DNA from: Ceratodon purpureus
Taxonomy: Eukaryota > Streptophyta > Bryopsida > Pseudoditrichales > Ditrichaceae
Direction: 5' to 3'
Length of the DNA stretch: 64,000 bases
Assembly (NCBI GenBank): GCA_014871385.1
Contig: CM026426.1
Coordinates: 101,449,393-101,513,392, forward strand
The notes below the pieces were generated by a model. The model saw nothing but the letters and a program-made list of their open reading frames with translations, made no database searches and was not told where the DNA came from. A program made the translations under genes and the position numbers. Positions within the stretch are counted from its first letter, which is position 1, and the number at the start of each line of letters is the position of its first letter. This document shows, piece by piece, positions 4,661 through 62,600 of this stretch.

Positions 4661-7600
4661 ATGCCGCAAAGAGTAGAGGCCTGGGATCAGTGGTGGCAAG
4701 ACTTGGGCGTGGTAGGTGCGAGGCCTCGGAGACAAGTTAGGTGTAGAATTTGTAATGTGACTATTGTGTACCGTCGGGATAGAATGTTCGCCCACTTTGG
4801 ATACAGACCTTTAGGTGGTCCAGGTAACTACGGTATACAAATTTGCAGATTACTGAGTGCGCGGGTGAGGAGGTTGTTCGTAGACTGCGGAGGTGAAGTT
4901 CTTAGAAGAGAGCCCAATGATGTTCATGACATTGGCTTGGGAGGTGACGGGGTCCCGGATCCGGTAATACCTCAAGCTCCCGATAACGAGGGGGCGCGCG
5001 CGAATGATGGGCCAGCTATGCAGGAGCCCGATATGGCACCCCAGGGTTCTCCACCCAGGGAAATGCGTCAACTGAATATTGTGCAAGGATTTAATGCTTC
5101 CACGAAGCTTCGATTAGATAAAGTGTGGGCGACGGCATTCTACGAAGCCACTATCCCATTCAACGTTGTTAAGCATCCTGCCTTCATTAACGCCGTTCAG
5201 GAAATAGTGCGATCCCGCTTCTCGACATACCTGCCGCCATCGATGAATGCTATTCGCACAAAATTGTTGACCGCGAGAAAGGCGGAAATGGTGAGACAAG
5301 TAAAGGAACTCACGGGCAATTCCACAGAGAAATACGGTGTTACGATATGTTCAGACGGTTGGGACAACGTCTAGAGTCGTCTTCTTCTGAATGTTATCCA
5401 GAGTGGGACCAGGGGCGACGTTTTCCTTGGAACCATAGACACGACGGGACATTACAAAGGTAGCGATTATATGGCTTCTCAGATCCATCCGTACGTGGAT
5501 CGGGTCAGATCGCAACATGTTGTCCAAGTTTGCACTCACAATGCTCCGAACATGCTTGGATCCAGTCGGATGCTCGAGACACGATATCCTCACATTTATG
5601 TTCAAGGGTGTGTCGCACACTGCTTGGATCTGTTACTGGAAGATTGGGGGATGGAGGATTGGGTGAAGCATATAGTCAGAAAGGCGAGACTTATTTGTCT
5701 ATGGGTTAAAAATCATCATTCATCAATGGCTTTGTTCCGCACGATGTGTCCCAATCTGACCATCCGTTTGCCCGTTGAGACGCGGTTCGCAACCAATTTC
5801 ATTATGATCGAGCGTCTTGTGGAACTTCAGAATGCATTTGAGAGAATGGTCATCGATCCGGCGTTTGCAGGTATTTTAGCAACCTATCCTGATGTGAACA
5901 GCTCAGCGGGGAGGAAGGTCCGCCTGATGCGGAAGTATGTGCGTGCGGACGGTTTCTGGAACACGTGCCATAACTTCTTATACATGGTCATCCCAGTGGT
6001 GAAGGCATTACGCCTTTTTGATGGGAAGGCACTTGCAATGGGCCTAGCTAGGAGGGCGATGTACGATTTGAAGAACCACGTCCGCAGTTTTTCCTCCCAT
6101 CCGTTTAGATTGAACGGGGACCTGGCAGCAGACGCCATGCTCGCATTCAACCACAGATGGGCTATGATGTTGACAGATCTTCATTGGGCAGGTGCGATGC
6201 TCAACCCGACCCTACGTGGATGGGCGCCACTTCATAACCACGAGGAGTCGAGGATCATTTTAAACCGGGTTCTTCGCAAGTTATCGTCTAACGAGGAGAA
6301 TTACGTCCAGATCCTTGTCCAGTATCAGGATTTCCTCGAGAATCGGGGGGCATTTGCTGATTCAACCGATCCCCAGGCGCACGGCAGTGTTATCCATGAA
6401 TGGTGGGACGCAATGGGAGGTGAAGCTCGGGCACTCCAAACAATAGCTAGACGTGTACTTGGACAGGTATGCTCCGTGTCTGCGTGTGAGCGCAACCGGA
6501 GCATGTACTCCTACATGCACAGCAAGGTGCGCAATAGATTGAAACATGTACGAGCGGAGGACCTCGTGTATATCTACACGAACAGTAGACTCGTTCGTCA
6601 CCGCCGGGCCCCGAGTCCGGCACAGTGGTATGGCTTAAAGGAGGTTCATTCCGACGATGACCTCGATGGCGAGGATCCGGACGAGGACGACGAGGAGGAA
6701 GACGTCGGACAGGGAGGAGACCATGTGGCGGACGATGTGGCGGACAATGCCCGCATGGATGGTGTCGGACAGGGCGGATTGGGCATGGGGGGTGTCGGAC
6801 TTGCGGACGATGATCCACCCGAGAGCGACTTTGAGGAATCCGGATCGGACAACGCAGGATCTGACGGTGACGACGGTGGCGATGTCCGGATTGCCGAGCT
6901 CTTCCACAATATGTTTGACGAAGGACACCGCCGGGATGCGGTTGAAGATATCCTTCGCCAGGATACTCGCGTCGGACGGCAGGCGTATGGTGGAGGTGAG
7001 CGTCGAGCTCGGAGTCCGATCAACGCAGCAGAAATACAGTCGGACAGAGGAGATGGTAGTCCGGCTCGGAGGATACCTATCGTCGACACGGACTTCTCGC
7101 AGCCTTGGAGTGATTCTTTGTCATTTGGCCAGAGGGATTTCGACGAGAACCTGGCAAACATGGAGAGAGAGATTCGAACAGTTTTTCAAAAGGATTCACC
7201 ACCTATCAATCGCCGGAGAGATGAAATAACGGAGGAAGATTCGAGAAGGAGGATGGCCGATCAGGAAGTTCAGACCCCGTCTGAGGAAATACACCGTCCC
7301 ATAACTCGAAGCCTTGCTAGTACGTCCGGAAGTATGGCTGTAAACCAGCAATAGCCAGCTTCTGCCCTGCTCTCCACCCCCGTTGGTAGGGGTCACATCC
7401 TTCCGCAGCAGACCTCCGGCCAGGGACGCAGACACCGAGCGGTAGGATCTGCTGGTAACAACGGTAGTCAGTCCTTTGTTCTGACCGCGTCTTCTTCACG
7501 CAGCCGGCCTATGCGGAGAGGGGTTCCATCTACGTCGATCCGAGTCGTTGCGGCACGTGCATCTAATTGTACGACTGGGGAAAGAGCGTCCAGTGGTCCT

Positions 7601-17967: not shown

Positions 17968-19902
17968 ATGGCAAACGAGAGTGGACGCATACATCAGGAA
18001 TGGCGCTCCGACGGGAGCCCCACTGGAGCACTCGGGGTGGGCGGGGGGCGTGGCGGAGAGAGAACTTGGTTTAATCAGGAATTCACCCCGATGGAAAACC
18101 TCGGAGGAGGCCACTTGCAGAGAGCGCGGGGAACGCGGGGTGGCCATGGTTCCCGGAGTCACGGCTCTCGTGCAAACCATGGATTTGGGGGGCGACACGG
18201 CGCGATAGGAAGCCACGCCGGGGAAAACATCGGCAGCCAAGGCACTAGGTCCAGTCCAGCGAGCTCGGGAAGTTCTAGCGGAGTACAAGCACCCGCCATG
18301 GAAATCGTCCCGCCACCTAAACCACTACCTAGGGTATTGTGGACATTGGCACCGTCCGACCAGTGTCCGCCGTCTACTGAAGAGCGTAGGGGAACTAAGC
18401 GGGCGGAGGGGTTGCAAGGAACGGAGTCTGGATCGACCGCGTCCGGTTCTGAGGTTAGGAAGCACAAGCATCGGAAGAAGGTAGCCGCGTGTGACCAGCA
18501 TTCCACGGAGGCTAGGCTTTGCTGTAGAAAGATAATCCTGGAATGGTTTGCAAGCCAGGACATGCCATACTTGGAGAGTACATACTTGAATGATGGTCCG
18601 GCGGGACTTGAGAAAGCTTCGAATGCTCTGAGGCTACTACTGCAGGAGGGCATGGCGGGGGATGAGTTCCAGGAGGATAGAGGGAAGAGCAATTGGGGAC
18701 AGTGGATCGAGGAACAGGTGCAGGAGGCATTGTTCAATTCAACAGTGCCATTTAACATGTTGTGTGGACCTGGTTCGGGATGTAGTGGGGGAAACTCCGA
18801 GATCCTACAGAAGCTGGAGAATTGGAAAAGAGGTGCTATCCTCGCAAAGGGGAAGGGAAGGACTACACTGCCGAAGTTTGTCGGGAGAGCTCTTGCCGAC
18901 GACATCGCTTCTCGAGACAGAAACGGTCTGAAGTGGCTACCGAAGGGTTCTTACGCCATCCCCGTAGACGAAAATAGTTTTCAGGGTTCGTTTGGAATCG
19001 TGCGAAGGGTGCGAATTACAGAGGCATGTTTCATCCCGGAGTGGCTTCATTTTGCAGGGAAGACCATGAAGGTGACTGACTTCAAGACAAGTCGCGATCA
19101 ACGCTCTATCGAGGCAATGTCATGTCTAGTTGATCACCCTGGTGTGATTAAGCTGCAATACCTAAACTGGAAGACGCTAGAGTCGTACTCGCTATGGTGG
19201 AACGGAGGCTCGTTGAAGAACATGCGTGCGTTCGATTTGAAATTTGGGGAAACCCATGAAATGGAACTTCTCAAAGACGCATTTCTGGACTTCGAGGCCC
19301 GGAGGAAGCTGGTCCTTTACCAAAAAAATCAAGCTCACTTGGCTTGGGCTCTCATGTGCATTGTAGATGTGGTACACTGCGAGGAAGTGCTACACTGCGA
19401 CCTACACCCTAACAATGTCATGCTCCACTTTCCAACAGACCGCGACGGAGCTATTTTCATAGGTATATTGGACTGGGGAATGGCTTCTTTCATGCCCGAA
19501 TCGGCCCCTTCGTACTACGGAGTACAGAGCGAAGACGCGATAAAGAAGCACATGGAAATGTACAGTTGTGCCGCTCCGGAGTTGTTCCATGTGCATGGCT
19601 CTAGAGGCTCATCCCAATCCCCACGTCGCATGGCAAAGCAGCACCTTCACACGTACAAATCAGAGTCCTATAGCGTTGGAGTACTCGCAAGGCAGATTTA
19701 CAACTCCGACTCGACATCGGTTCTATTTCAGCAGAACCGCGACCCTAACGGAGTTAAGATGCGCTTTGAGCAGGGTTGAGACGAAATAACCCAGATCAAC
19801 CCGGCTGCTAGACAAACCGTCACACACGTCGTGAGGACGTTGAAGTTACCACCTTACAATCTGCAAACACCGAATATGTGTTTCCGGGACTCCCATTCAT
19901 AA
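17968..19902 (+). pseudogene. Protein-kinase-like protein, one in-frame TGA near the C-terminus
   Basis: ATG at 17,968. Residues 1 to about 330 are Gly/Ser-rich and then helical, with no known domain. The kinase fold follows: Gly-loop FQGSFGIVRRV (about 340), GKTMK with the likely ATP Lys, HPGVIKL, catalytic loop HCDLHPNNVM (about 476), metal motif DWG instead of DFG (about 502), and APE as AAPELF. The catalytic Asp and Asn are present, so activity is possible; HCD replaces HRD. TGA at 19,777-19,779 is followed by 40 open codons (DEITQINPAARQTV, then HVVRTLKLPP) that look like the end of a kinase C-lobe, so the stop is probably a recent nonsense change from CGA or TGG. The substrate is unknown. 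It lies downstream of a GTCCG block and TATA box. Confidence 0.75.
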
Positions 19903-23679: not shown

Positions 23680-25769
23680 ACAGTGACGCCATTTCATTGA
23701 AAACAGTCTACTTGAAGAAGCAATTGAAACAAATTCCTTTAATACACGGGAATTAAAAAATGAACACCGAAAACAGAAATATAGAGTCAAGGAAGCAGTT
23801 TGTAAGATAGATGTACTATGGGTGACATGATAAATCAGACGTACCTTCCAGTAGGGGAGTTCAAAGAAAGTGCTCCCGCGTTTGATTCCATGGACCTTGG
23901 AGGGATCAGGGGTCAAAGTTCTTTGGCGTCTGACTGAACTCGATGTGCCTGGTATTTCCCTTCGCCTAGATGATGTGGTTGCATCAGATGGCCGTGTTTC
24001 TGTATTTTTCCTTCTACTCCTTTTACTTGATGATGGTCCCGCCATTGTTACTCTCGTTCTTCTTCTTGGTCGGACTACATAGTCCTGATACAGTCTCAGA
24101 GCGGCTCTCTGATCAGCAGGGGTTTTTACAACCGGTGCCAACCTGTCCTCTAACTTCCCATTGAATAGTTTGTCGAATTGGGATGATCTTATAATGTGAC
24201 CTGGACGTACCCACTGCCTAGCATCTCGATAGGTAATTTTCTTACACTCAAAAGCATATGTCCCTCTCAGCTCATCACCACAAGGCAGACAGGCACATTA
24301 TCCTTGATGAGAGGCTCCGGAAACTGAACCATACCCTCGAAAATCGTGTGTAGTATAGAGGACAGCGGTCCTTAAATGAAATGGCGATTACCCTCCGGTT
24401 CTACAACATCATAAGCCGGAACACCTTCCCACAACTCTTTCAGTTCATCTATGAGGGGTCTAATCCAGACATCAAAGTACTCGAATGGTACTTGTGCTCT
24501 TCCCGGGATCAAGAGAGTGAGTAGAGTAAAAAACTTCTTGGTAATGAGCCATGCTGGTAGATTTAGGATATTTACTAGAACTGGCCACACTGACCATGTA
24601 GACCTGTGTAACTTGAATGGACATATACCATCATACGAGACCTGTAAACGAACATCTTGTGGTTTTGATCCGAATTCCTTTGTGTCGCATACGTAGGGAT
24701 CCAGAGAATCCAACGTCTTCCATGCGTGTAAATCTGCTGAAAATCTGACCTTCCCATCCCGGCTGAGATTTTCGTAGTGCCATCCCATCAACTTCAATAA
24801 AACTGGTATTCTAAAAAACCTTCGCAACCTTGGAGTCGGTGGAAAAAACCAAAGCACCTTCATAGGCCTCGTCCTGTTCAACATGTCCTTGTATCTCAGT
24901 GATCCACAGACGGGACAGTGGTCAAGATCCCTATGATCTTTGTGGAACAATACACAGCCTCTAACGCAACCATCAATGTTTTTGAAATCCAAACCCAGAC
25001 GCTTTGTGAGAACTTTTGCCTGGTACATGGATGCTGGTAAACAATTATCTGCAGGCAATAGACATTTGACTGTGGCTAAGATATCATCCGCGGCTTTCTC
25101 GGTTATTAAACTGTGGGTAGCAACTAAGTTGACTATCATAACGGTGGCACCAAGTTTTGAGTGATTTGATCCAGAATACAATATCCCCATCGCATCCTCA
25201 AGGGCTTTCGCATCGTGGATTCTATCCTCCTTTGTTGCAGCGTCATACATATTTGAAGTGTAACAGCCTTCCCCTAATATTGATCCATCATCATCACCTA
25301 AACTCCCTGCTCCAGTATTGCCCCCCCTTTCTTCATCTGCATTGGTCGCTAACAATTCTTCTTCCTGACTGCTACGACCCGCACCGCATCTTCCATCTCC
25401 CTCCTCGTCGCGGTTAATTCCTATGCTGTTGTCCACCGTCTCCATTGCTTCCATTGTGATGTTATCTAGTGTCTCTTTTGTTTCAGTGAATTCTCTCACC
25501 TGTTGATACATGTCCGCCATCATGTTCCGCATTTCTAGTCCACTGTCCCGTTCACTTTCCACATGTGAACTACCGCGTACTTGAGCGGCGCCAACCTCTT
25601 CCCATTCATTATCAGAAGAGTCAAGGGTTGTGGGCCCTCTCCAAGTTTGGCACTCTAGTGAGCGTCCATAACGTAACAAGTGCCTCTCCACCTCTACTAA
25701 TCCGTATGGTCTACATGTTCCCCTGTGTAGACTGCATGGACACGGAATTCTAGTAAAAGTATATAACAA
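23680..25769 (-). pseudogene. CACTA (En/Spm) TNP2-like transposase, degraded
   Basis: Reading leftwards from 25,769: RIPCPCSLHRGTCRPYGLVE, then an acidic linker, then the conserved TNP2 block LGLDFKNIDGCVRGCVLFHK, CPVCGSLRY, KVLWFFPPTPRLRRFF, LMGWHYEN, then YDGICPF, STWSVWPV, LNLPAWLITKKFFTLLTLL, and FDVWIRPLIDELKELWEGV with PAYDV. These match plant Transposase_21 (TNP2) proteins in order. After 24,372 the frame shifts and continues as RTAVLYTTHDFRGYG with an in-frame TAA at 24,300-24,298, then CACLPCGDEL and a basic tail to about 23,680. The apparent start at 25,769 is a TTG codon, so the true first exon is missing or upstream. It is divergent from the accessory gene beginning at 28,078. Confidence 0.85.
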
Positions 25770-37155: not shown

Positions 37156-37570
37156 CTAGGAGTTCATTAGATACAATGTCAAACATCTTCATGAAAAAAA
37201 TGTCCTCAAACTCATCTTCTAACTCTTCCTCAAACCCTAGTTCTAATCCAAGACTCCTCTCAAGCTCCTCTTCCTATGATTCCATGCTTGCAAACTTTAA
37301 AAACTAAAATCCTTAATACTACTGCACTCCACAATCTGTCCCTCTTTGATCACCATACCCTCGATGCAGATGCTCTGACGGTATCCTTTTCCACTCCCTC
37401 CAACTCTCCACTTTCAAATCATCCCCTTCTATGTCACTCAGTCCCTTTCTTGAGAGCCACGGAAGTTTCAAGCAATCGTCATCTGATGCTCTCATTATAT
37501 GGCCAGCCGGTGAAGAGTTAGGAGAACGATTGTGAAGAAGTCTAGAGGCTCGTGCTTTTCGGTAGTGAGG
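37156..37570. other. Probable promoter and 5' UTR of the SAM gene
   Basis: Pyrimidine-rich sequence with CCCTAG/ACCCTAG and long CTCC runs, typical of plant 5' leaders. No clear TATA box. The frame extends upstream of the ATG to a GTG at 37,532 but no other ATG is in frame. Confidence 0.35.
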
Positions 37571-38779
37571 ATGGAGGATCAGCCACAGTCGAAGCGTAAG
37601 AGGAGGCCGAGTGTGCGCCTAGGGGAAATTGGGTTTGCGGGGCTGTATGATGCGTCGGAGATGTGGATGGAAGCGCCGAGGCAAGGGAAGAAGTTGTTGG
37701 GGAAAAAAGCGCTGCGCATCCGATCGCTGGAGAATGTTGGGCAAAAGGCTGTGGTGGTTCCTGAGGAGGAGTGGAGCGTGGATGAGCCTGCGGTGGCGTC
37801 GGCGGATGAGGAGAAAATGGTTGTGGATGGAACCGGGCCGGTGAGCACGCTTGTGAAAGAGTCGCAGCACGTGAAGCTGCGGACTGGATCAAGCGCACTG
37901 AAGACGCAAAGGGACGTGCGGGCAAAGGGACAGGGGCTTGGAGAGTGTCGCTTGGCGTGGAATGTAAGTAGAGTGAGATGGAAGCACCAGGAAGCCAGCA
38001 GGGCAGGGCCTGTAGCTGACGCAGATTTAGCCGAGAAGGAGGAGGAGAAAGAAGGCCTTCCATTGCAGGCCGATGATGAGGCTCTGTTCCTGGCAGGAAC
38101 AACGTCGGACTCTGAAGAGCTTGAGAGAAATGTGTTGAACGAAGAGGAGGGCGAGCTTCCCGCTGGCGACTATGGGAATGGAGCGTCCGAACGCAGTGCG
38201 CAAGGCGACGCTGGCGCTAACCCTAACAGTCCTTGCAACTCGGGTGATTTTGTTGCAAAACAACAGAGGTGCATCATAATTATACCGGCCAACCCTAACA
38301 GTAATGGCGATGAAATGCAGGGGGGCATTGAGGATGGTCCGGGGCAGGCAGCTGGGAAAGGCTCTAGCACAGTGAAGCAGCGTGAAGGAGAGTGGAGATC
38401 GGGCAGGCAGGCAGCAAGGAGAAGCAACCGGAGTGGGGATACTATCAGTAGAGACCGCAGCAGAGATGCTGTGAGCGGAGACATCGCGGGTGAGCCCAGC
38501 GGGCGCTTCCAGGCTCTACCGTCGGCAACAAACGGAGCGATCGGCGCCACTCCGAGCTCGAGCCAGAGATTGACTTCCCTTTCTGCTGGGGTTAGTGAAT
38601 GGCTGCAAAACCTTGGTCTTGGGAAGTACTCAGTGCTCTTCGAGCTCAATGAAGTTGACGCTGAAGTGCTCCCGCTTCTGACCATGAACGATCTCCGAGA
38701 AATGGGAGTCGATGCTGTTGGCGCCCGACGCAAGATGTTCACCCATATTCAAGAATTAGGACACCTTCGTGGAGTGTAG
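37571..38779 (+). CDS. SAM-domain protein (plant KRxRRPSVRLGEIG type), 402 aa
   Basis: ATG at 37,571 (MEDQPQSKRKRRPSVRLGEI). The basic N-terminal motif RKRRPSVRLGEIG is characteristic of a plant family of SAM-domain proteins. A long disordered, acidic and Gly/Ser-rich middle follows. The C-terminal SAM domain (about residues 341-398: VSEWLQNLGLGKYSVLFELN, LTMNDLREMGV, GARRKMFTHIQEL) ends near the stop TAG at 38,777-38,779. SAM domains mediate protein-protein or RNA binding; the partner is unknown. Intact, single-exon, GC-richer than its surroundings and not similar to transposon genes, it is the best host gene here. The 186-codon minus-strand ORF over its start is a shadow. Confidence 0.85.
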   Translation: MEDQPQSKRKRRPSVRLGEIGFAGLYDASEMWMEAPRQGKKLLGKKALRIRSLENVGQKAVVVPEEEWSVDEPAVASADEEKMVVDGTGPVSTLVKESQHVKLRTGSSALKTQRDVRAKGQGLGECRLAWNVSRVRWKHQEASRAGPVADADLAEKEEEKEGLPLQADDEALFLAGTTSDSEELERNVLNEEEGELPAGDYGNGASERSAQGDAGANPNSPCNSGDFVAKQQRCIIIIPANPNSNGDEMQGGIEDGPGQAAGKGSSTVKQREGEWRSGRQAARRSNRSGDTISRDRSRDAVSGDIAGEPSGRFQALPSATNGAIGATPSSSQRLTSLSAGVSEWLQNLGLGKYSVLFELNEVDAEVLPLLTMNDLREMGVDAVGARRKMFTHIQELGHLRGV

Positions 38780-47273: not shown

Positions 47274-49690
47274 CTAGGTAGAACAAGTACTTAATAAGTC
47301 TACTTTTCCCCTGCATACAGAACTCTCACACTTGCATTCAAAATACCGCAGATTAGGGTCTTCTCTGCTGAAGTCAGTTCCGTTATCCCATGTTAGTTTC
47401 TCCAATGGCCGAATCTTGTGTTTTGTGAAGAATGCCAGCTGGTATAAGCTCCGGTCTAACCTTTCGACTAGGACTAGGACATCTACCAAATTCGAATCTT
47501 CGCACCTGTAGATACAGAGAACAAAGGTATTAGAAGTATAGAAATGTATGTATAAACCGGTTGAGACCATACGAAGCAAATACAAGGGGGACCCACCGGT
47601 AATTGAGAAATCAGGCCACATTTTCGAACCGGGTTGCATCAAGGCACAAAGCTGAATTGTCATCCAACACTCGTTCAGCAGCCCAGTCAGCATCAATCTG
47701 TAAGCTATAAGAGGAGCCCCTCTTCATACCCCGGTTCCTTAACATTTGTTTAGCATTTGTCAAAATCTCCCCCGTCATTTCAAACACAAACGCCCTTCTA
47801 GAGATAGGTTCTCTTGCCCGGATACCCATGCCATGTCGGCTATACAAAAACCTCTACTCCGTATCTCATCCCTTCTTGTACAACACGGTTCCCACAATCG
47901 ATACCACATCCGCACTTTGCATTACACTCAGAAATGAAGGCGCCCGACTTGTGAACCCCACATGTGACAACACTCTCAATACGGCGTAGCTTAGTAGAGT
48001 AGCACTGTAGAGTACTAATACAGTCGTTGGCCTCATGTATGCGTCGTTGGAGAAAAGAATCCTTGAAGAATCCGCCTGCCCTGTATGCAAATCTACCACC
48101 ATTGGCGGTTGTTGCACATGTACATGGACACTTGGCGGTCAAGCAGTCCTCTAATGAGCATGAACAATATGATCCCTTTCCTAGACTAGACAACGTAGGA
48201 TTCATATGTGCCTGGTCGTATACAATGCTCGTGTTGATGTATTGAAAACTAGGCAAAGCAACATCAGAGAACACAAGAGGGACTGAGGTCTTCTCTAGTC
48301 CCCTAGACAAATCTTCAATCATATATTTGAACTGGCCCTGGTAAGATTTCCATCCCAACAGCCCACATTCCCACAATTGTTATGCGATAATGTGCATTCC
48401 TTGAAGTGAACCTTGCAAACGAGGTTACTATACATAACTGGCCAGAAGTGAACTACATTCCGTAAACCCTTGAAAAAATCTACCAAAATTGACAACGACG
48501 TTCTATCTCCAGCGCTGCTACTTCCGGCCGTTGGACACCGCCCCACCTACCATACATTTCTTCTCCCCTTTCTTCTTTCGCGCGCTCCCGGGAGATGCCT
48601 CATCACCGCCCTCTACAGCTTCTGGAAGTTCCTTCGCACGTGCCCCAGTGATCCTCATAGACGCAATGTGGGTTCTCGGTTCTGCATCCTCCCCACTAGC
48701 AAGAGCCTCATGAAATAGGTGGGTGACGCTCTTATCCACAAAGTGCAGATTTTTAATTGCAACCTCTTCACCGTGGTCAACTTCTCTCTCGCCAGGAAGA
48801 TTCTGCTGCGGCCTTACGACTGGTTGTTTGACCCTCTTGCCGCGGCTCTTTGCTTCCTCTAGATAGCACCTATAATGAAAACATATGGTTAGTAATACGA
48901 ACTGAATGAACGGAGCACAGTACGTATCAATAATCTATTAAGACTACGCATATTAAAAAATAGTAAAGGAGTCTCACCTGTTTGTTTTATGGCAGGACTT
49001 TCCGTGTGGCTCAAGTCGTGTTTCCTCCCAGGTAGACATTGAGATCCGGGAACAAGTTGAGTGGGTGGAGATGTGACCTCCATCTGTGTACACACCACCT
49101 GCACAGCCTCAACAACGTCATCTCTGTCCTCCATGTGTAAGTGTCGGATAGGAGATTTAGACGTTGCCTTCTCCCTGGGTTCCACTTGATTTGGGACCTC
49201 TGGAGGTACGGGGCTGATGAACTCTCGGTTGTAGGACTTAAATACCGGCAACACTCCCAGAGAATTTTTCGCAGCTTCTACCCCTCCACCCGAGCCTGTT
49301 GATCTGGTTATCTCGAAACTAGAAGGGAGGGTGGGCATCTTCTCCTCATGATCTTCATCGCTTGAAGACTCATCTTTAGAGTCCAGCTTTGGCTTCAAAG
49401 GTCGTGTTTTTTGACCACCTTCTCCCTCCAAGCACTGAAAGACAGGGAGTTCCTCCCTCTTCCGTTTTGCGCCACTCGCAGTCTACTTCGACAAGATCCT
49501 GGAAGGACCATGCTGCAACGGCACCAGCAACAAAGTGTCTTCTGAAATGCCCGGTTGAGGTAAGTAAACTTGGCTTGATCTCTCTTCCACCACGATAGGT
49601 AGCGTTGTAGCACGCGCATCGAAGGAAAAACTTGAAGACTCTGCAAACAACCAGTCGAGGGTTTGGGTTAAATTTAATCGCGAAGTACAA
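47274..49690 (-). pseudogene. SUVR-like SET-domain histone methyltransferase, frameshifted, catalytic residues altered
   Basis: Reading leftwards: a basic/acidic N-terminal region (RPLKPKLDSKDESSSDEDHE), then a pre-SET region (SLEDCLTAKCPCTCA; FISECNAKCGCGIDCGNRVV) and the SET core (YSRHGMGIRAREPISRRAFV, FEMTGEILTN, IDADWAAERVLDDNSALCLD, ATRFENVARFLNY). A GTGGGT donor and TCTGTATCTACAG acceptor then join RCEDSNLVDVLV, LAFFTKHKIRPLEKLTWDNG, and a post-SET end ECKCESSVCRG. This matches plant SUVR (KMT1) H3K9 methyltransferases. A one-base frameshift near 47,849 separates GVEVF from YSRHG. The usual NHxC reads NYRC and the catalytic Tyr of WDYG reads WDNG, so enzyme activity is unlikely. It converges on the transposase gene and shares its GTAC-rich non-coding sequence. 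Confidence 0.8.
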
Positions 49691-51845: not shown

Positions 51846-52239
51846 GCAAAATCTCGCTACGGCATACCCCAATGTGAACCTCCTAGCTCTGAACCCAGCA
51901 CTCACTCTCACCTCAAACCTTGCAAAGGTTTTTCACGGTAAAACCCTCCCTAACAAAACCCACAACCGACAGAGCAATGCACGGCACACTGCTCATTCAA
52001 AACTAAGATTCACTAACCCTCCGCCAAACTGAGGTGCGAGACGACAATCTGCGGTCACCGGTCATCCCTTAGAGGTACTTGCTGTCACCGGTTTCTTGCG
52101 TTAACAGCCGATGCAGCAACTAGTGATCACCGATTACCACTAGAAATGACACCGTGACTCAAGAACTGAAATGAATAACTTAGTAATGCGTAACTCATAG
52201 GATATAGGAAATCTACATGCGGGGCTATTCTTATTTGAA
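51846..52239. other. 5' region of the minus-strand gene, short GTCACCGG repeats
   Basis: Several related phrases, GGTCACCGGTCAT, TGTCACCGGTTTC and GATCACCGATTAC, at 52,055-52,140. They may be the margin of the GTAC-marked element or promoter motifs. No gene. Confidence 0.35.
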
Positions 52240-52657
52240 AAAACATTAAAAACATAGATGAAGTGGACAGCTCAGAAGATGAGTAAATGATAAATCTAGG
52301 AAGACGGATAAAGTATGGCAGTACGATTGAACATTAGAGGAAAAATAAATAAGCAAAAATATATATTGAGTGAATGGATGAGGAAGAGCAAAATATCAAT
52401 AGTAGATTAAATCTTTTAAAAATAAAAAATAAAATACATAAGTAAAACAAAAAAATATGAAAGAAGTGGATAATGCACAAGGTCCAAAAATAGTAAATTA
52501 AGGAAGATGGAATAAAAAATAATGAATGGATGAAGAAGAGAAAGATGAAAATTGAATCAATTGATTTGAACTTAAAAAAATAAAAAATAAAAATGAAGTA
52601 GAAAAAGAGTAAATGGTATATTTAGGAAGATGGTATAGGATGCCTAGAAAAAGATTG
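52240..52657. repeat. A-rich tandem repeat, left flank of the retroelement
   Basis: Diverged units of about 130-200 bp containing ATGAAGTGGA, GAGTAAATGATA, TAGGAAGATGG, GATTGAACATTAGAGG and GGATGAAGAAGAG. Related units continue at 59,405-59,620 beyond the retroelement, so the retroelement lies within this repeat. Confidence 0.65.
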
Positions 52658-53848
52658 AAAACTTCCCTACCCCTAAGGGTGGGTGGGCGGGACATCCCTT
52701 TACAGGGCAGCTTTTATCACCTTCCTCACCAAATTTCTTTTGAAATCAGCCCATTCTCAATTCAAACCTAATCAAATCTGTACACTCTCTTGTGATTCCA
52801 AATTACCAGTATAGACACATAGTGCTTTTCACCAAAGAATTCTCAATCAACACACTACTTACAATATAGTAGTGTATGACAAAACAATCCAAATAATAGA
52901 GAGAAAAGTTTGTCTTAAAACTGACAATACAAGATCACACACAAAATAGTTTGAGTTTCCAGAAATCTTCTCATCCCTTGAATGTTGGTGTAGTAAAGTA
53001 AGAAAAATCCAGAGGTAAAGGACCTCACCTGTCCCCATAAACACAACCAAAACCACAGTTAGGATTATGTTTGTAGACAAGGTGTCAACAGCCCTTTACA
53101 GCTTGTTATTGCAGTCACAAGAAAAATCAAACCCTACACCAAACATATAAATAAAAGGGAGAGATGAAAGAGTCTAATTGCAAACATAAATTAGAGGACC
53201 TGACTAGTAGTTCCACCAGACTCAGCCATGTTGTACTTCAGCTCCACACCACCATAAACCAAAACTTCACAAGCTCTTAAAATCTCTCACACACATGTAG
53301 CAAACTAGAATTACTTTCAAAGCAGACAAGTAAACAGATGCATATGGCAAAGAAACTCCCAAGGTTTTATACCCTCAAAGGAGTCTCTAGAGATTCACTT
53401 GTTCATTATATGGAGAGTCTGTGCAAATGAACAGCCTTGCAAGACCAATCATCTCTGACCCTTAGATGAAGGTTAACCTAGATCAAATGGTCATAGATTA
53501 GTGCCTCGCAAAGAGTAAAGTTCAAGCTTGTAGTAAGCCCCAAGTAAAGTAAGCTTCAAGTTTGGAGTAATTACCAGGAAGCCAGGTGTAAGGGAGGTGG
53601 GTGGGTTTCACTAATTTACACCTTAGTTAGCATATCATGCCATAATAAAGTGACTATGTAATTGCTTGCACACTTTTTCAAGTAATGTGCAAATTAATTT
53701 GCAAGCCTACATAACTGAAGAGTGCAACTTCTGTCTAAATCATTGTGATAGAAACCTTATTTATTAGCCAGAAAATAAATTCTAAATCAAATACAGGTAT
53801 AAGAGCAACCCAATATTTAAAAAAGAAAAAAAGAAAAAAAAGAAAAAA
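52658..53848 (-). repeat. Terminal direct repeat (downstream copy for the minus-strand element)
   Basis: Starts AAACTTCCCTACCCCTAAGG and ends in an AAAAAAGAAAAAAAGAAAA tract. From about 52,905 to 53,840 it matches the other copy with only about two substitutions that I could find by eye (53,231 T versus C; ACAGG versus ACGGG near 53,797). The first 250 bp are clearly more different. A small frame (52,859-53,080) also occurs in the other copy and is not considered a gene. Confidence 0.88.
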
Positions 53849-53875
53849 GCCCGCCTACCACCCTTGGTGAACGTG

Positions 53876-53923
53876 CCTCAGTAAGAGTACTTGGTGTACC
53901 CTCTTACTGAGGAGTACACCAAG
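53876..53923 (-). other. Interleaved inverted repeats, pseudoknot-like
   Basis: CCTCAGTAAGAG (53,876-53,887) pairs with CTCTTACTGAGG (53,901-53,912); CTTGGTGTAC (53,890-53,899) pairs with GTACACCAAG (53,914-53,923). The order a-b-a'-b' is that of an H-type pseudoknot, or of two mutually exclusive hairpins. It lies about 100 bases after the RT stop codon and just before the 3' terminal repeat, and is absent from the other repeat. Confidence 0.7.
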
Positions 53924-54021
53924 CTCTTCACTGTATATGGTTCTATTTTTTAAAAAAGAACCAATAATTTTCTTTTTCTTTTTAGTAGCAATTAGATCAA
54001 ATAGGCATGAACTTTGAGTCA

Positions 54022-56174
54022 CTACCTAATTCTGGAAATTAATTCTTGTATGTCAAACTTGATTCCTGGAAATGGACCATTGTCCAGAAAAGTTGAGATT
54101 AGGTGTCGAAGCCGACGTTCTTGGAAACCATTCTTGACCATGGTAGAGATTAAAATAAGAATCTCTTTCAATGCAGCTTCCATAGAGCTGGAAAGGTACA
54201 GAATTGGAACAGTTTGGGAAACAGCCACACTATAAGACTGTTTAATTGGTCGGTTTGAATCGAACATAATATATTGAGAATATGAAAAGGGAAGGTCTCT
54301 CCTTTTGTCATATTTGCAGGTACTATATACTCCTGACCCAGATTCTTCAATAGCAATGTCCAAATTCATAAAATGGGCATGGACTCCTCGAGCAGGGTCC
54401 TCTAGTGCATATCTGGTAACTTCATTTTTAATCTCCAAAACATTGAGTGGATACACCCAATAAGGATTCTCTGCTAGTCTAGGTTGTGATGGTGATAGAA
54501 ACGCAAGAGGCTGTTCCACATTAATCCAACATAAGTCATCTATGTATCTAAATGCAGACTTAAATTGTTGCATAATATCTGAACGCCCTAGTTTGGCCAG
54601 GCAAAGCATGAACTGGATTTCGTAATGTAATAAGTATACATTACACCAGAGTGGAGAGCACGAAAATCCCATTGGGATGCCAAGGGTCTGTTTCCAAACT
54701 CGATCACCAAGTTGTACGTTGCAATTTCTCATCAACCAGCAGTGTAAAGAAATTAACCGTTCAGCAGGCAATACAAAACAGTCACCATATGCAGGCTTAC
54801 TGGAACTCCATTGAGCATGAGCTGCTTGGCCTTCTGCATTCACCCTAATCCATATTTGAGGTGTAGAACGAGGGTGATGTTTCTTGGCTTGACGATAACC
54901 AATGCGTATGATGTGTGACACAGCTTCAATCAAATTGTCATCACCATCTAATGGTATCGACTCATAACACCGCGTAATATCAGCCACAAAAATATTGTAA
55001 ATCTTGTTGGGCAAATTTAAAGCTACCTCAATGGAAGAATTCACCAGCCAATAGATTGAACTATTGCATCTCAGAAATTTGGAGAAACCATTGGTAGTGT
55101 CTGAAGCCCAAATTCGAACTTGTTCTAGTACCAACATGGTTGCTATAGTTAACAAGTGAGCAAGATTTGAATAAATTGTCTGGAATGCATTTGTAAGCCA
55201 ACGGTACCTGTTTTTATGTAGCTTGTAGGTAGCCATTAGATATGGCAAGGCTTCAAAGGAAACCCGTACTTCAGGAAGCAAATGAGAAATCTCAGAAGAC
55301 ATATATCGGAGAACATGAGAAGGCAGCAGCCAGACCTCACCTTCACATCTAGGACTGAAATCTGACCCACTAAGGCGTTCCAATGCCATAAAACGAATGT
55401 GACGAATGCATATAAAGCAGACATTATTGGAAGCCTTGTCTAGACCTGCACAATAAAGGTGCGAAGTCAACCAGCTAAGTTCATCCTTTACAGCATGTAA
55501 AGATAACAAATCAGGTCTTGAGCTTCGAAATCCAAAGAGATTGGAATGTGAAGCTAATTTCAGCTTGGAAAGGCATGTGTCCCGAAACCATTGAGTGGCT
55601 TGCTCAAGAGGGAAACCAGTAGATTGTAAGCCAAGAATTTCCACAATTTGCTCAAAAGCTTCCATTACTGTAGCCATGCAAGCAGATAATTTAGAGGTGG
55701 GCCTAGGCGGTATATGATTGAGGCCTTTAGCCACAGCTGATCTCAGCTGCAAGTGATGGATTATTCCAGTATCTATGGTTCGTACATGAACTTGTGGATC
55801 AATAAAGCTCGATGTCTCAAGTAAGGTCCGAGGATCCAAGAAATGAGCAAATCGTTTAATGCTCAGACATTCACATGTCACAGAAGAGTCCAAAAGTTCC
55901 AAGAACGAAAATTTTTTGAAGACAAGAGAAGGTTTATATAGCACTGTAGAAAGAGGAGCATGGTATTTCCATGCGAACATAACTTCCTCAATCAAAGGTA
56001 CCAAATGTGCATGATCAAACTGTATGAGTACTTCTGCAAACAGTTTTCTAAGATGCAGCCATTCAATGGACCTGCATGGATAGGTGAGAATAACATAACC
56101 GATGGTCTTTCTCTTACTACCTCGTTTCAAAATCCTTCTACCAAGCTCATCAATGGAAAGAATGCGATCAATAT
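54022..56174 (-). CDS. Reverse transcriptase (PLE-like / orphan class), intact ORF of about 717 codons
   Basis: The open frame runs from a splice-acceptor-like TGTGCTTTTCAG (exon begins 56,174) to TAG at 54,022-54,024; the first codons may come from a leader exon because no early ATG is in frame. Numbering from 56,130: DKASNNVCFICIRHI (near 233), TYKLHK, motif A DITRCYESIP (D384), motif B GIPMGFSCSP (484-493), motif C YIDD (529-532), then LNVLEIKNEV, FMNLDIAI and YDKRRDLPF in the thumb region, ending QELISRIR. The GIPMG...YIDD pattern and thumb resemble RTs predicted in many corals, molluscs and fishes, and, more distantly, Penelope-like elements; this is from memory. No RNase H or endonuclease follows. 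The long N-terminal 230 residues have no recognised domain. Confidence 0.82.
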
Positions 56175-56209
56175 CTGAAAAGCACAGAAATTCACAAGTT
56201 CAGCTCAGA

Positions 56210-57871
56210 CTAATCATCATCATCAAAGCTGCAAAACTTGGTTTTGGTGGCAGGTGCACGAATATCCTTGATCAGAACACTTGAAGGTTGAGGCACAAAT
56301 GTATGAATGATCGTTGGAGTAGCCAAGACAGGTTCAACATGTCTGGGTGTTGGAGTTTGCATGTTGTAATGGCGAGGAGAGTTGTCACGGGAATAACGTC
56401 CACGACCACGACCACCATAACCTCCACGAGCATACTGTCCCCGGCCACGGCCGCGACCAAAACCAGTGCTGGGTGGTTTGCACCCGGATTGGTTTGGAGC
56501 AGATGGAGGAGCATTCAGGTTCAAACGTGTTTTCTTCCCAGGAGGTCCTGTCGTTGGAATCATGGGGTTTGCAATTGAAAAACTGGCGGGTTTGAGCAAT
56601 CGCTCAATCTTTTGCAACCCAGGCATATGATTGTTGGCCTGGAACAATTCGCCCTCATGATCATGAGCCATCTGTAAGACACCTTCTAGCATCCAAATTC
56701 GGCTTTGCATGAAGGTAAGTTGGCATTTAACTCCTGAACGACCTGCTGTACCCATCCATATAAGAAAAGCCCCATATTTGGAGACTAAAGTTGGGTAAGT
56801 AGAATCAGGGAAGAACTTGTCCAAATGGTTGAGCATGTAATAGACAGCATGATCAAACCAGATGATGTTCCCAGTGCATCCATTAACAGCTCGATAATGG
56901 CAAAGACATCGAAGATAAGGTCTACTCTGGTTCCATAACTCTTGAGCATGTTTTTCTTTACGATCACCTTGTGTAGGCAAGTCCAACTTAACATGCAATT
57001 TCACGTCAGGTGTGGAACATTTGCCATGGTCGTAAGTGTAGAGAGAGAACGCACTGATCAAATCCTCTGATTTACCAATGCACTGGGTTCCTTTCAGAGA
57101 GTGCTCCTTACAGGCAGACACCTCCTCCTTAGAAAGACCAGCCCAAATGCGCCATGCAGCAAACGGGACTGGAGCCAACAGGTTTATGTTGCCATGAGCC
57201 CAGACACGATGGTCTTTGTAAGTAATGGTTTCTTCCACAGCACGTGCAGGTTCAAAGGGAATAGCCAAGCTCTTGCCAGTGGCAATAAGAGCAGCTTGGT
57301 CTTTCTCAATCTGTGTAGACGTAATTGACTCCTGGAAATCCTCAAGCGCAGCCTTGCTCGGTCCAGTAACGACCATATGTTGCAGAAAAGGGTGAGAAAG
57401 AATGTTCCCCGAAGCCACAGTACCTGTAGCTAGAGTACCTGAGGTTCCCTGTGAAGCTAAATCAGGACCAGTCTCTGGTGCAGCCAAGCAATTTGCTTTG
57501 CGAATGGCATGTTCAGCCTTGGCAGTATCTGAAATGGCCTTCTCCAGTTCTTCCGTGTCCAAGATCATGCGCTCAATTAATTTGTCCTTTAGTTCACCAA
57601 GGCGGGCCAGTCCACTTGCAAGATCAGAGTTGGCCACCTCAAATATTCGAGTCCATTGGCCCAGATCAAGCACAGCCAGAAAAGTTGGAGCCTCACCTTC
57701 CTCGGAATTTGCTCCAAGTGCTTCTTTATCGTGACTCTGAATAAATTCGTGAATCTCTCTAGGATGAATAGCAGCAAGGGTGGCTTGAATAGCAGGGGTG
57801 GGGACAGGTAATGGGTCCTCATACCCAATTGCAGTCAAGTCTTGATGCCAGATTGGACCCTCTTTGGGCTC
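56210..57871 (-). CDS. Gag-like RNA-binding protein with RGG box (ORF1)
   Basis: Open from a splice acceptor (TTGTTATTTTAG, exon start 57,871; EPKEGPIWHQDLTAIGYEDP) to TAG at 56,210. The middle is helical with IFEVANSDLASGLARLGELK, a PFAAWRIWAGLSKEEVSACK segment and several Cys residues (LRCLCHYRAVNGCTG). The C-terminal region (about residues 455-490 counted from 57,838) is Arg/Gly-rich: FGRGRGRGQYARGGYGGRGR, an RGG box for RNA binding instead of the CCHC knuckle of normal gag. It ends FCSFDDDD. Position and RGG box suggest a nucleocapsid-type partner of the RT. The frame differs from ORF2 by one, with about 35 nt between the ORFs. Confidence 0.68.
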   Translation of the reverse strand, partial: EPKEGPIWHQDLTAIGYEDPLPVPTPAIQATLAAIHPREIHEFIQSHDKEALGANSEEGEAPTFLAVLDLGQWTRIFEVANSDLASGLARLGELKDKLIERMILDTEELEKAISDTAKAEHAIRKANCLAAPETGPDLASQGTSGTLATGTVASGNILSHPFLQHMVVTGPSKAALEDFQESITSTQIEKDQAALIATGKSLAIPFEPARAVEETITYKDHRVWAHGNINLLAPVPFAAWRIWAGLSKEEVSACKEHSLKGTQCIGKSEDLISAFSLYTYDHGKCSTPDVKLHVKLDLPTQGDRKEKHAQELWNQSRPYLRCLCHYRAVNGCTGNIIWFDHAVYYMLNHLDKFFPDSTYPTLVSKYGAFLIWMGTAGRSGVKCQLTFMQSRIWMLEGVLQMAHDHEGELFQANNHMPGLQKIERLLKPASFSIANPMIPTTGPPGKKTRLNLNAPPSAPNQSGCKPPSTGFGRGRGRGQYARGGYGGRGRGRYSRDNSPRHYNMQTPTPRHVEPVLATPTIIHTFVPQPSSVLIKDIRAPATKTKFCSFDDDD

Positions 57872-58106
57872 CTAAAATAACAACCATTCAGGTTAAATTA
57901 GAGATAGGAAATGAGACAAAAGCTCAAAGAGAAATCAACCAATCAGGTAGGAAATGAGACAAAAGCTCAAAGAGAAATCATATCCTGTTACCAAAATGGA
58001 CCCTGTTAGGCCTTCTAAAAGAACCCACAGTACAAAAAGAAAAATGATAAGAAAAGAAATAAAAGCTGAGAGAGATTCAACCGTCTCTCTATGGATAGAT
58101 GTAAAA

Positions 58107-59388
58107 AAACTTCCCTACCCCTAAGGGTGGGTGGGCGGGACATCCCTTTACAGGGCAGGTTTTATCACCTTCCTCACCAAATTTCTTTTGAAATCAGCCC
58201 ATTCTCAATTCAAACCAAATCAAGTCTATGCACTCTTTTGTAATTCCAAATTACCAGTTTAGTCACATAGTGTTGTTCACTAGAAAATTCACAATCAACA
58301 CACTACTTACAATATAGTAGTGTATGACAAAACAATCTCAGGTAGTTCCAAAATAGTCACATAGTGCTTTACACCAAAGAATTCTCAATCAATTCACTAC
58401 TTACAAATAATATTGTATGATAAATCAATCCATATAGTAGAGAAAAGTTTGTCTTAAAACTGACAATACAAGATCACACACAAAATAGTTTGAGTTTCCA
58501 GAAATCTTCTCATCCCTTGAATGTTGGTGTAGTAAAGTAAGAAAAATCCAGAGGTAAAGGACCTCACCTGTCCCCATAAACACAACCAAAACCACAGTTA
58601 GGATTATGTTTGTAGACAAGGTGTCAACAGCCCTTTACAGCTTGTTATTGCAGTCACAAGAAAAATCAAACCCTACACCAAACATATAAATAAAAGGGAG
58701 AGATGAAAGAGTCTAATTGCAAACATAAATTAGAGGACCTGACTAGTAGTTCCACCAGACTCAGCCATGTTGCACTTCAGCTCCACACCACCATAAACCA
58801 AAACTTCACAAGCTCTTAAAATCTCTCACACACATGTAGCAAACTAGAATTACTTTCAAAGCAGACAAGTAAACAGATGCATATGGCAAAGAAACTCCCA
58901 AGGTTTTATACCCTCAAAGGAGTCTCTAGAGATTCACTTGTTCATTATATGGAGAGTCTGTGCAAATGAACAGCCTTGCAAGACCAATCATCTCTGACCC
59001 TTAGATGAAGGTTAACCTAGATCAAATGGTCATAGATTAGTGCCTCGCAAAGAGTAAAGTTCAAGCTTGTAGTAAGCCCCAAGTAAAGTAAGCTTCAAGT
59101 TTGGAGTAATTACCAGGAAGCCAGGTGTAAGGGAGGTGGGTGGGTTTCACTAATTTACACCTTAGTTAGCATATCATGCCATAATAAAGTGACTATGTAA
59201 TTGCTTGCACACTTTTTCAAGTAATGTGCAAATTAATTTGCAAGCCTACATAACTGAAGAGTGCAACTTCTGTCTAAATCATTGTGATAGAAACCTTATT
59301 TATTAGCCAGAAAATAAATTCTAAATCAAATACGGGTATAAGAGCAACCCAATATTTAAAAAAGAAAAAAAGAAAAAAAAGAAAAAAA
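58107..59388 (-). repeat. Terminal direct repeat (upstream copy for the minus-strand element)
   Basis: About 91 bp longer than the other copy because of a 94-bp internal duplication: CACATAGTG starts at 58,264 and again at 58,358. Contains the CAG|GTGAGG donor (58,570-58,563) likely to end a leader exon. The remainder is nearly identical to 52,905-53,848. Confidence 0.88.
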
Positions 59389-59404
59389 AACCAAACAAAA
59401 TAAG

Positions 59405-59620
59405 GATGAAAAATATGGAAATGAAATGGAAAACTCACAAGGTGAGTAAAAGATAGATGTACAAAGATGGTATAGGATGTCTAGAGAAGGATTGAACAAT
59501 AAAGAACAATTAAATAAATAAATAAAGATAGGACCAAAAAAAAATTAATGGATGAAGAAGAAAAACAAGAAAATTGACTCAATGGATTAGAACTTAAAAA
59601 AAAATTAGTTATGAGATGTT
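59405..59620. repeat. A-rich tandem repeat, right flank of the retroelement
   Basis: AAAGATGGTATAGGATGTCT, GAGAAGGATTGAACAATAAA and AATGGATGAAGAAGAAAAAC match phrases in 52,450-52,657. It continues the repeat interrupted by the retroelement. Confidence 0.65.
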
Positions 59621-62600
59621 TGTTGACTTTGAAATGCTCTTGATAATTTATTGTATTTGAATTTATACATCTATCTCTTGTAAAATGTTAGGGTGTGCAC
59701 GGTCAAGCCTACAAGAAACTCCTCAAGCAAACCATGACTAATATGCCTAGGTTTAATGTACCCAATATCATGTCTTGTATCACAAATTGGCCCTATTAAA
59801 AATCAATGAACAAGTAAGACCCTAAACCCTACATTATAAATTTACAAGTTCAATATGGACACCAAAATTCAAATTACATACAAATTGTCATGACATTAGC
59901 ACACCATGTATTACTTGTAGGGTCACTAATGTGTAGGTGGCAATATTGGGGTGTTATTTACCTAATGCTTAGTTTCTCTTGCCTAAAACAATGTACTTGA
60001 GATAGTTTGTCCTCCAGATTAGGGTGCTGTCTTCGTCGAATGCAGAGTATGCAATATCCCCCATCGTCAATATGCCCTTCGGTGCAGCTCTGGGTACATG
60101 GGGACCACCCCCGCCCATTGAGGATATACGTAGTTACTTGTCACTTGCTGCATTTGGGCTTCCCATGGCACAGTTGATCCATTTTGAATTAATTTAACCT
60201 TCTGGTTTTTCCAATGCGGGCCACTGCGACCGGTGGCTTGTTTTCTTCGGATGGGGCATGCTCCAAGTACCTGGACGGTCGTTTGGAGAGCCGTTTCCCT
60301 GGCCTCTGTCTTATCATACTAAGGTTATCTGAGAGAGCTGGAGGGTGCGAGTGGAGAGGTGCAGCACTTGTACTCTTGGATTGCTAACTCCGCACCGGAA
60401 CCGCCAAGGGCCCTGCAGTAGAAACTGTTATTGTCAACCACGTGTCAGATCAGAACCTGGAGTATATAGAGTGGGTTTACAACCTCTACAGATCTGCGTT
60501 CATAGGTTTAAGGAGGACTCATACCTTGTACTGTGTCGGGGCAAGACCTTTTCTGCACTCCATCTGCGTCCAACGTCTCATCTGTCACAACAATCCACCA
60601 TTGACATCATTTCTCATAACGGATTAGACAACCCTTTTTGCGCTACCGGCTACCTCTGTGTTACTATTAGGAGCCAATTCAGTCTGTGAGTGAGTCCTCT
60701 GATCATGTGATGAGTGCCATATCCTTCTTAGGTGCCGCTCTCTTTTGCGTCCGAAGATTGCTATCGTTGTATGAGCCAAATGCGATCTCCATTGCGGAAG
60801 GGTACTCAGTTGTGGGAGGGACGGCATTGAATGCTTTGACGTCAAGCGCCGCTTCAGCTACCACTATAGTGCTTAGGTCATGAGTAAGCTGTTTGGATGG
60901 GGACGATCTCTTCTCAGCTGCCTTGTGCTTCAAGCATAGCATTAATGACCAAAGAGCAGCTCTATGTCCTCCATCTTCAATACTACTAACATTGGCATTG
61001 CAAACTTTGACACCGGACTTTGCACTGCCATCTGCATTGCCAATATTATAAAGAAGCCCATGGCGGATAATGAAGATATGATGTTATTGTTACGGGATAG
61101 GGAGACAACGTTTACATGTTTAGAGAACTCATTGGCATCGCATGTTGCACTGTCGACGAAACACGTTTCGTGTGAGATGCCAGACATTGAGCACATCCTC
61201 TCCCCGGATTTCATTACCTTAGGTTCCTTTGAATTTTCCTGTTAGTTCAGTGCTTAATGCTCTGACCTCCATGTGCACAGGTGGGAAGCCCTCTGACATC
61301 AATCGATCAAGCGGGGGGAGAGCGTGTCCTTGACATCTGCAATCTCATGATCAAGTCTAGTTTCTTACTCTTAGATGTCAGGTCAAAATTCATGGATGAC
61401 AGGTCCGAAGCCGTCTCTGAAAGCTTTTTGTCCACTTTGCAGCGCTAGCTGCTTATGCTTTGCATTGGGGTCTTCACAAATTGCAACTCCTGCCCAACCA
61501 ATTGGTTCACGAGTGAAGCTAGCGTGCGAGCCTAGAATGGTGAGCACAGATCGTAGAGCAGAAAAAAGCAGAAAAAATAGGGGAAAACCCAAAATAGTTT
61601 TTTTTGGGCGCCAAATTTACTATTTTTAGTAACAAATTGAACCTATGGCCGTGGATTCCTTCACCAAAAGTACTCCAAAAGTGTGAAGTTACCCCCTTGC
61701 CACCAAATGCTAAATAGACACTATCGGATCCGAGAGCATACATTTCAATACTTGGAAAGGGGGAAACGAAGGCATTCACGAGGGGCAGATTATGAAGCCC
61801 ATTGTTTCTGTATGTGATATTGACTCGTAGACACCTTCTGAGGTTGAGCGCGATGTGATTTAGATTTTGTCAAACTTGGGTGATTATTTGGCACCAAGTA
61901 CAAATGAAGTTTCGAAGAGAGAGATAGCGCTTATACAATGAATCGGGGTGCAAACATCCTCAACAACGATGCCTTGTATATCAAACTTAGGAAGGCTGGC
62001 CACACTCGGAAAATAACAAGTTTGTCTTTGCTCCGGAGGGAGCTGAAGATGACTGCGTCGATCTCAAGAAGAATCATCACCAATCCATACGAAGGTGCTA
62101 TTGGAGACGGAATAATGTATGCGTTGTTGCTTGCAAAGCCGTCCAACTGCGTGACCTCATCGGCTCCAAAGGAGACTCAGGATGTGGTTGATATTGACCG
62201 GCACACGAGTTGGGATGGCCTAGATTTTACACAATAGATGCTAAAATCAATAGTGCAGATGAGTGGTGGACTAAAATTGAGATGATCACGATGAAAGAGA
62301 ATTGCAATTCTTATAGTATGATATTTCTAAGAATTCCAAGATATCAACTTATTTAATTCTCTACAAAATGAGAGCTCTAAGGACAATTCTGTTGAGTTGA
62401 ACTGTTGATGCATGATGAACCAAAGTCGGGCAACGGTGCCAAATTACGCGCTAACCTAGATTCCACAAAGGGGTTTCATTGATTAAGACAAAAGGACGAT
62501 GGTCACAGTAGTCGAAATCCGCTAAGGAGTGTGTAACAATTCACCTCAGAATCAACTAGCTCCAAAAATTGACGGTGGTCATAGAAGTCAAAATCCGCAG

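Follow-up and report, generated by a model that had tools for sequence, protein, structure and literature searches.

A stretch of 64,000 nucleotides from the moss Ceratodon purpureus (C6:101449393-101513392, the whole of which is called the window here) carries on its minus strand, at 52658-59388, an apparently intact retroelement with two open frames between direct repeats of 1.2-1.3 kb. We consider it fairly probable that this is an autonomous, endonuclease-deficient Penelope-like element (PLE) of the moss, in which a telomerase-like reverse transcriptase (RT) is primed by annealing to pyrimidine microsatellites and builds repeats and arrays by jumping, a mechanism that we infer from the observed anatomy, lack of endonuclease, ends, locations, arrays and mosaic repeats. 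That the element is an endonuclease-deficient PLE is supported by the RT itself, the comparison with Athena and Coprina being made from descriptions.

In the sense direction the order is 5' direct repeat, leader, ORF1, ORF2, structured tail and 3' direct repeat. The 5' repeat (58106-59388, 1.28 kb), a pseudo-long terminal repeat (pseudo-LTR), opens with pyrimidine tract 1, of the TTTTTTC type, which marks the start of the element (59358-59390), and is followed by a leader (57872-58105). ORF1 (56210-57871, 553 codons) is RGG-rich with a conserved CxC...C...WFDH block, and ORF2 (54022-56199, 725 codons from stop to stop) encodes a Penelope-type RT with a telomerase-like predicted fold; other coding-strand frames within the element reach 81 codons at most. 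A conserved structured RNA tail (53849-53927) stands immediately before the internal, 3' copy of tract 1 (53819-53848), its G-rich end directly preceding the tract, and the 3' repeat (52658-53849) ends in T4, which is tract 2. Both the two undisrupted frames and the terminal repeats of the preliminary description were thus recovered, the repeats sharing 300 bases at 100% identity and pieces of 1039 and 232 bases at 98.6% and 93.5%.

The class of the element follows from ORF2. The motifs DITRCYESIP, GIPMGFSCSP and YIDD, which had been read from the sequence at the outset, are present and largely conserved in an alignment of 98 sequences (97 of the 120 listed homologues were taken and 23, mostly shorter, omitted), while Pfam reported RVT_1 alone, below threshold (E 0.0027). 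The predicted model (pLDDT 93) finds its best structural match in telomerase reverse transcriptase (TERT), which leads both lists with alignment ranges listed from residue 54 to 702, and would accordingly comprise an N-terminal domain at the place of the TERT RNA-binding domain, an RT core and a C-terminal extension. A resemblance to RTs of aquatic animals had also been suggested and proves correct: a query with an animal RT retrieved such a family of 2155 matching proteins, whose 'animal' label comes from two of the 120 listed rows, named after the pearl oyster Pinctada imbricata. GIY-YIG lies above the Pfam cut-off near the N-terminus of four of the eight proteins scanned, three of the four having been chosen because the listing already showed the domain. 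When the ORF2 family was compared by hhalign with the GIY-YIG-bearing family (24 of the 120 listed matches aligned), the profiles matched across 627 columns (probability 100, E 3.4e-43). The match lies wholly downstream of the endonuclease, starting ~130 residues after that domain in the member P0240. It includes a CxC linker (C86/C88, at least 90% conserved in the ORF2 family), which is aligned with the corresponding CxC linker of the GIY-YIG family, and an H..T.D motif is also common to both.

Since four of its eight scanned members carry GIY-YIG, we regard the animal-type family as Penelope-like, and because ORF2 aligns with it along most of its length, the label of an orphan or unassigned class, given in the preliminary description, no longer holds; a two-ORF PLE without endonuclease, of 4-6 kb, is moreover an architecture already known, as far as the accessible part of PMC6431247 describes it. 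An N-terminal GIY-YIG domain combined with a CxC linker is the mark of the Naiad/Chlamys PLEs, a group reportedly described by Craig et al. in 2021. Microsatellite bias, pseudo-LTRs, tandem copies and a lack of hammerheads are presumably features of that group too. The moss element differs from it in lacking GIY-YIG, in having a separate ORF1 and in forming a separate clade, its sequences being set apart by a long branch with full support (100/100) in a tree of 37 rows. Common ancestry of ORF2 with telomerase RT, a character of PLEs, is suggested by the predicted model and by the profile match to the GIY-YIG-bearing RT family. The name PLE/Chlamys itself occurs in the available portion of PMC12477816.

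The lack of a recognisable endonuclease is family-wide and not a deletion in the window copy. No GIY-YIG was found by a profile search of six frames of 14 loci and of 158 family proteins (120 for ORF2, 38 for ORF1), so that the window copy is not the deletion derivative whose possibility had initially been raised. The profile, built from 11 endonuclease regions, gives left-out controls 269 and 368 bits and is narrow, since five GIY-YIG frames of the genome itself also fail to reach significance with it; these, detected with the Pfam model, lie neither at element loci nor beside an RT. At L038, L040 and L041 the moss genome has short open frames that contain a GIY-YIG domain but lack a neighbouring RT. 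Furthermore, the GIY-YIG-bearing P0240 matches this element family alone in the moss, with 33 matches and none over the endonuclease. Integrase, RNase H and protease are likewise unrecognisable by Pfam in the open frames of the element, in agreement with the preliminary description, and the check by structure prediction that it had proposed for the N-terminal 230 residues of ORF2 revealed no hidden nuclease, the part from ~54 onward being aligned with TERT and residues 1-53 lying outside that alignment. At loci whose ends were readable, TG...CA termini are absent and the ends are T or CT tracts. Visual inspection of the flanks printed for 13 loci showed no target-site duplication, though simple repeats could hide one there. 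No hammerhead ribozyme, such as many PLE families carry in their terminal repeats, was found by Rfam, either at E<=5 in 52000-60000 or at the gathering threshold in five loci.

The family is large and its members well preserved. ORF2 has 160 homologues, with 42-94% identity among the 120 listed, and matches the moss genome 70 times; 23 near-full-length copies (at least 685 of 702 residues) lie at 15 loci, and 19 of them have no internal stop. Two pairs of ORF2 sequences, the ones that avoid both saturation at silent sites and near-identity, give dN/dS values of 0.06 and 0.13, from which ORF2 is judged to be under purifying selection, and the window compared with its 98%-identical copy gives 0.58 with few changes there. 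The genome matches, the two low ratios and the number of homologues together place the coding reading of the element far beyond chance. Because so many copies are free of internal stops and terminal-repeat pairs outside the window are 99.7-100% identical where paired, the element is apparently young and recently active, as the first reading had held for a plant. Head-to-tail pairs or longer arrays occur at 7 of the 15 loci (14 were read, the window included, and the arrays at C10, C1:7.27M and C3 were deduced from match spacing), and in the arrays C1_28, C15, C7_14 and C4 neighbouring units share terminal repeats and are 99.7-99.99% identical. Pseudo-LTR direct repeats and tandems, both found in this family, count among the characters of PLEs in the accessible text of PMC3846280. 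At C7:330000-349999 (L029-L030) members of two different subfamilies follow one another head to tail, and CT tracts separate them. Non-autonomous mini-elements, with terminal repeats, leader, tail, the last ~57 codons of ORF2 and an internal part of ~691 bases, were observed at C12:4185000-4194999 (L036) and C4:5500000-5519999 (L025-L026), the latter with five tandem units, and they may show which parts suffice in cis.

ORF1 accompanies ORF2 throughout, its matches adjoining ORF2 at 15 of 15 genome loci, albeit partially at C6_83; homologues of both frames also share contigs of 5341, 5241, 5703 and 5556 bases, where they presumably sit side by side. Annotated relatives occur in C. purpureus and in the liverworts Calypogeia fissa and Riccia sorocarpa. 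ORF1 gave no Pfam match at E<=1, and its predicted model matches no known fold; the protein is largely helical and carries an RGG tail, and Cys, His, Asp and Asn residues are invariant or nearly so in an alignment of 34 of its 38 homologues. The RGG character noted in the preliminary description is therefore present, and since a helical protein with such a tail is what would be expected of gag-like proteins, ORF1 would be a gag-like, RNA-binding partner of ORF2. An ORF1 match at C8:82151-82825 falls inside an open frame given as 3593 codons long, an unusual length.

The ends of the element are closely associated with simple pyrimidine sequence. Wherever they are readable, the element begins at tract 1 and finishes in tract 2, and the loci read form two branches, one beside T-rich DNA (window, C6_11, C6_53, C12, C4, C1_28, C1_26 and C68) and the other in or beside (CT)n (C15, C7_14, C13, C6_27, C7_33 and C6_83). 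The 3' runs of the former comprise 4 to 12 T. In the latter the CT run extends past the element's own 3' CT end by ~45 bases at C7_14, >140 at C13, 7 at C7_33 and ~140 at C6_27, where N follows; at C15 the contig stops 5 bases past that end. Imperfect runs at C6_27 and C15, set against terminal repeats that are 99.7-99.9% identical there, suggest that these runs are older target DNA. In the window the same AT-rich minisatellite, the target DNA, lies beside the 3' end (52377-52657) and the 5' end (59444-59602), and 0 of 5597 30-mers sampled in the window outside the element are pyrimidine tracts of the kind in question. No TTTAGGG run of two or more units was found in the 14 loci.

The RNA tail that precedes tract 1 contains two hairpins, both common to 8 of 8 aligned tails: hairpin 1 (GAGCYTGGTG...CACCARG), in which 12 bases are able to pair downstream, and hairpin 2 (CACCAAGGGTGG...GGCGGGC), directly before the tract. 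Folding of five tails gave z-scores of -2.1 to -7.2. Pairing between the hairpin-1 apex and downstream sequence amounts to 12 and 16 bp in two T types, a length reached by 0 of 2000 shuffles, and to 8-10 bp in six CT types (shuffle p 0.01-0.17, singly weak); in the tail of C7_14 the longest helix lies elsewhere. No Rfam family exceeded threshold in 52000-60000 or in five loci. Because the conserved starts of ORF1 and ORF2 both lack an ATG in the window and YAG acceptor-like sites lie upstream of these starts in the families printed (YAG is common, and no statistic was attached), the leader and the start of ORF2 may be spliced. Candidate sites include a donor G|GTTGAA near 58081 and an acceptor TTTTAG at 57872-57873, which would delimit a mini-intron in the leader, and a putative 3' splice site (CTTTTCAG) at 56175-56182, shortly before the conserved ORF2 start. 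Introns in PLEs are described in the accessible parts of PMC11722881 and PMC3846280.

The terminal repeats of the window are not simple duplicates of each other. Typed at 23 diagnostic columns, with type II defined as the type found in the mini-elements at C12 and C4, the 5' repeat is type I throughout (23/23), whereas in the 3' repeat all 4 of the left-hand columns are type I and 17 of the 19 right-hand ones are type II. The 3' repeat also lacks a type I block of ~91 bases (93 alignment columns) present in the ORF1-side repeat, and changes private to the window are common to both repeats. Since one repeat is a mosaic of two types and the other is of one type, two templates must have contributed, through jumping of the RT or later gene conversion, and the mosaic fits template jumping, which predicts different parents. 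At C6_53 four columns differ between the repeats, again at the right end; in the CT families compared, the differences are scattered.

On the mechanism that we favour, the priming end of the spliced element RNA would bear a pyrimidine tract (CU or U), and this tract would anneal to the complementary microsatellite strand where a nick, a break or a gap from replication already exists. At that DNA end the RT could then prime in the manner of telomerase, copy the terminal repeat, jump to the redundant end of the same RNA or of a second one, copy the body and jump again, copying being halted at the other pyrimidine tract, beside the strong G-rich hairpin. The cDNA would be joined to the far side of the microsatellite through microhomology, and each additional jump would yield one more unit in an array. 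The parallel with TERT, beyond the structural match, would be that, on this proposal, an RNA repeat anneals to a DNA end; the moss element differs in being mobile, in copying a whole RNA and in having no listed counterpart of the extreme N-terminal domain of TERT. More tentatively, and possible rather than probable in our view, the element would belong to an endonuclease-free lineage of Penelope-type elements, conserved in mosses and (judging by ORF1) in liverworts, that behaves as a mobile telomerase within chromosomes. Its RNA, with a pyrimidine tract next to a conserved, pseudoknot-capable fold, would pair with (GA)n or A-rich microsatellite DNA ends and be copied in LTR fashion with target DNA in place of a tRNA, jumps giving rise to the terminal repeats as well as the arrays.

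Among the alternatives, the closest is that the element is a plant member of the described endonuclease-deficient PLEs of Coprina/Athena type, known from Selaginella telomeres. We take Coprina to be the name for such PLEs of fungi and plants. Two ORFs, no endonuclease, a length of 4-6 kb and head-to-tail arrays are all reported, in what is accessible of the descriptions, for Athena and the Terminons of rotifers and for Coprina, and a fold adjoining a simple-repeat stretch occupies a comparable place in Terminons in the available text of PMC6431247. The moss element, however, is chromosome-internal at pyrimidine tracts without telomeric arrays in the 14 loci, has long terminal repeats and no hammerhead, and shares the CxC linker and the long match with a family bearing an N-terminal endonuclease, so that, on the published descriptions, this assignment appears rather unlikely. 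A similar verdict, if slightly more sceptical, applies to LTR-type replication without integrase, in which a primer site beside the 5' repeat and a G-rich polypurine-like tract beside the 3' one would yield a two-LTR cDNA, to be inserted into microsatellites by repair, either homologous or microhomology-based, with the help of host RNase H. As in LTR retrotransposons, a gag-like ORF precedes the RT, the insert has two defined ends and nearly identical repeats, and in the families read these begin right behind a G-rich stretch (of GGGTGG..GGCGGG type) and end right before the leader. Yet the RT is of Penelope/telomerase type, the enzymes and TG...CA ends of LTR elements are missing, T and C interrupt the G-rich stretch, and no TGG primer-site start lies directly behind the 5' repeat at the printed loci, no comparison with moss tRNAs having been made; tandem copies at 7 of 15 loci, and mosaic repeats in the window where repeats identical at birth would be expected, fit this scheme poorly.

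It is also conceivable, but improbable, that ORF1 or an unrecognised part is a new nuclease cutting pyrimidine microsatellites, in which case the element would not be endonuclease-free. The strong target preference, the near-invariant Cys, His, Asp and Asn residues of ORF1 and its unmatched fold would be in keeping with this, whereas the ORF1 profile has no match to the endonuclease-bearing family (probability 0.2%) and its helical, RGG-tailed, gag-like make-up points elsewhere, while still being compatible with a nuclease of unknown fold.

The chromosome on which the window lies, C6, measures 110.5 Mb in an assembly of 362 Mb and, since the U and V chromosomes of this moss are given as >100 Mb each in a genome of 360 Mb in the accessible part of PMC8000587, is probably a sex chromosome. 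Elsewhere in the window we noted a hAT transposase remnant (5471-7354, DUF659 and hAT dimerisation domain), a protein kinase-like open frame with an N-terminus of low complexity (17968-19779), a Transposase_21 (tnp2) domain (24372-25769), which we take to be a CACTA-type remnant, an open frame with a SAM domain at its C-terminal end (37532-38779), and a Pre-SET domain fragment (47840-48376) of the type found in histone methyltransferase genes.

No description of such moss elements was found in the open-access literature searched; key PLE papers lie outside that search, and priority is uncertain. Endonuclease-free PLEs are described as telomere-associated in sources available in part, PMC3846280 among them. 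Telomeres always offer a free DNA end, and a chromosome-internal family would, if the reading proposed here is true, show a telomerase-like enzyme finding its primers elsewhere. The element would then be a naturally occurring system of insertion guided by RNA and independent of a nuclease, and it would offer a test of the relationship between telomerase and retroelements.

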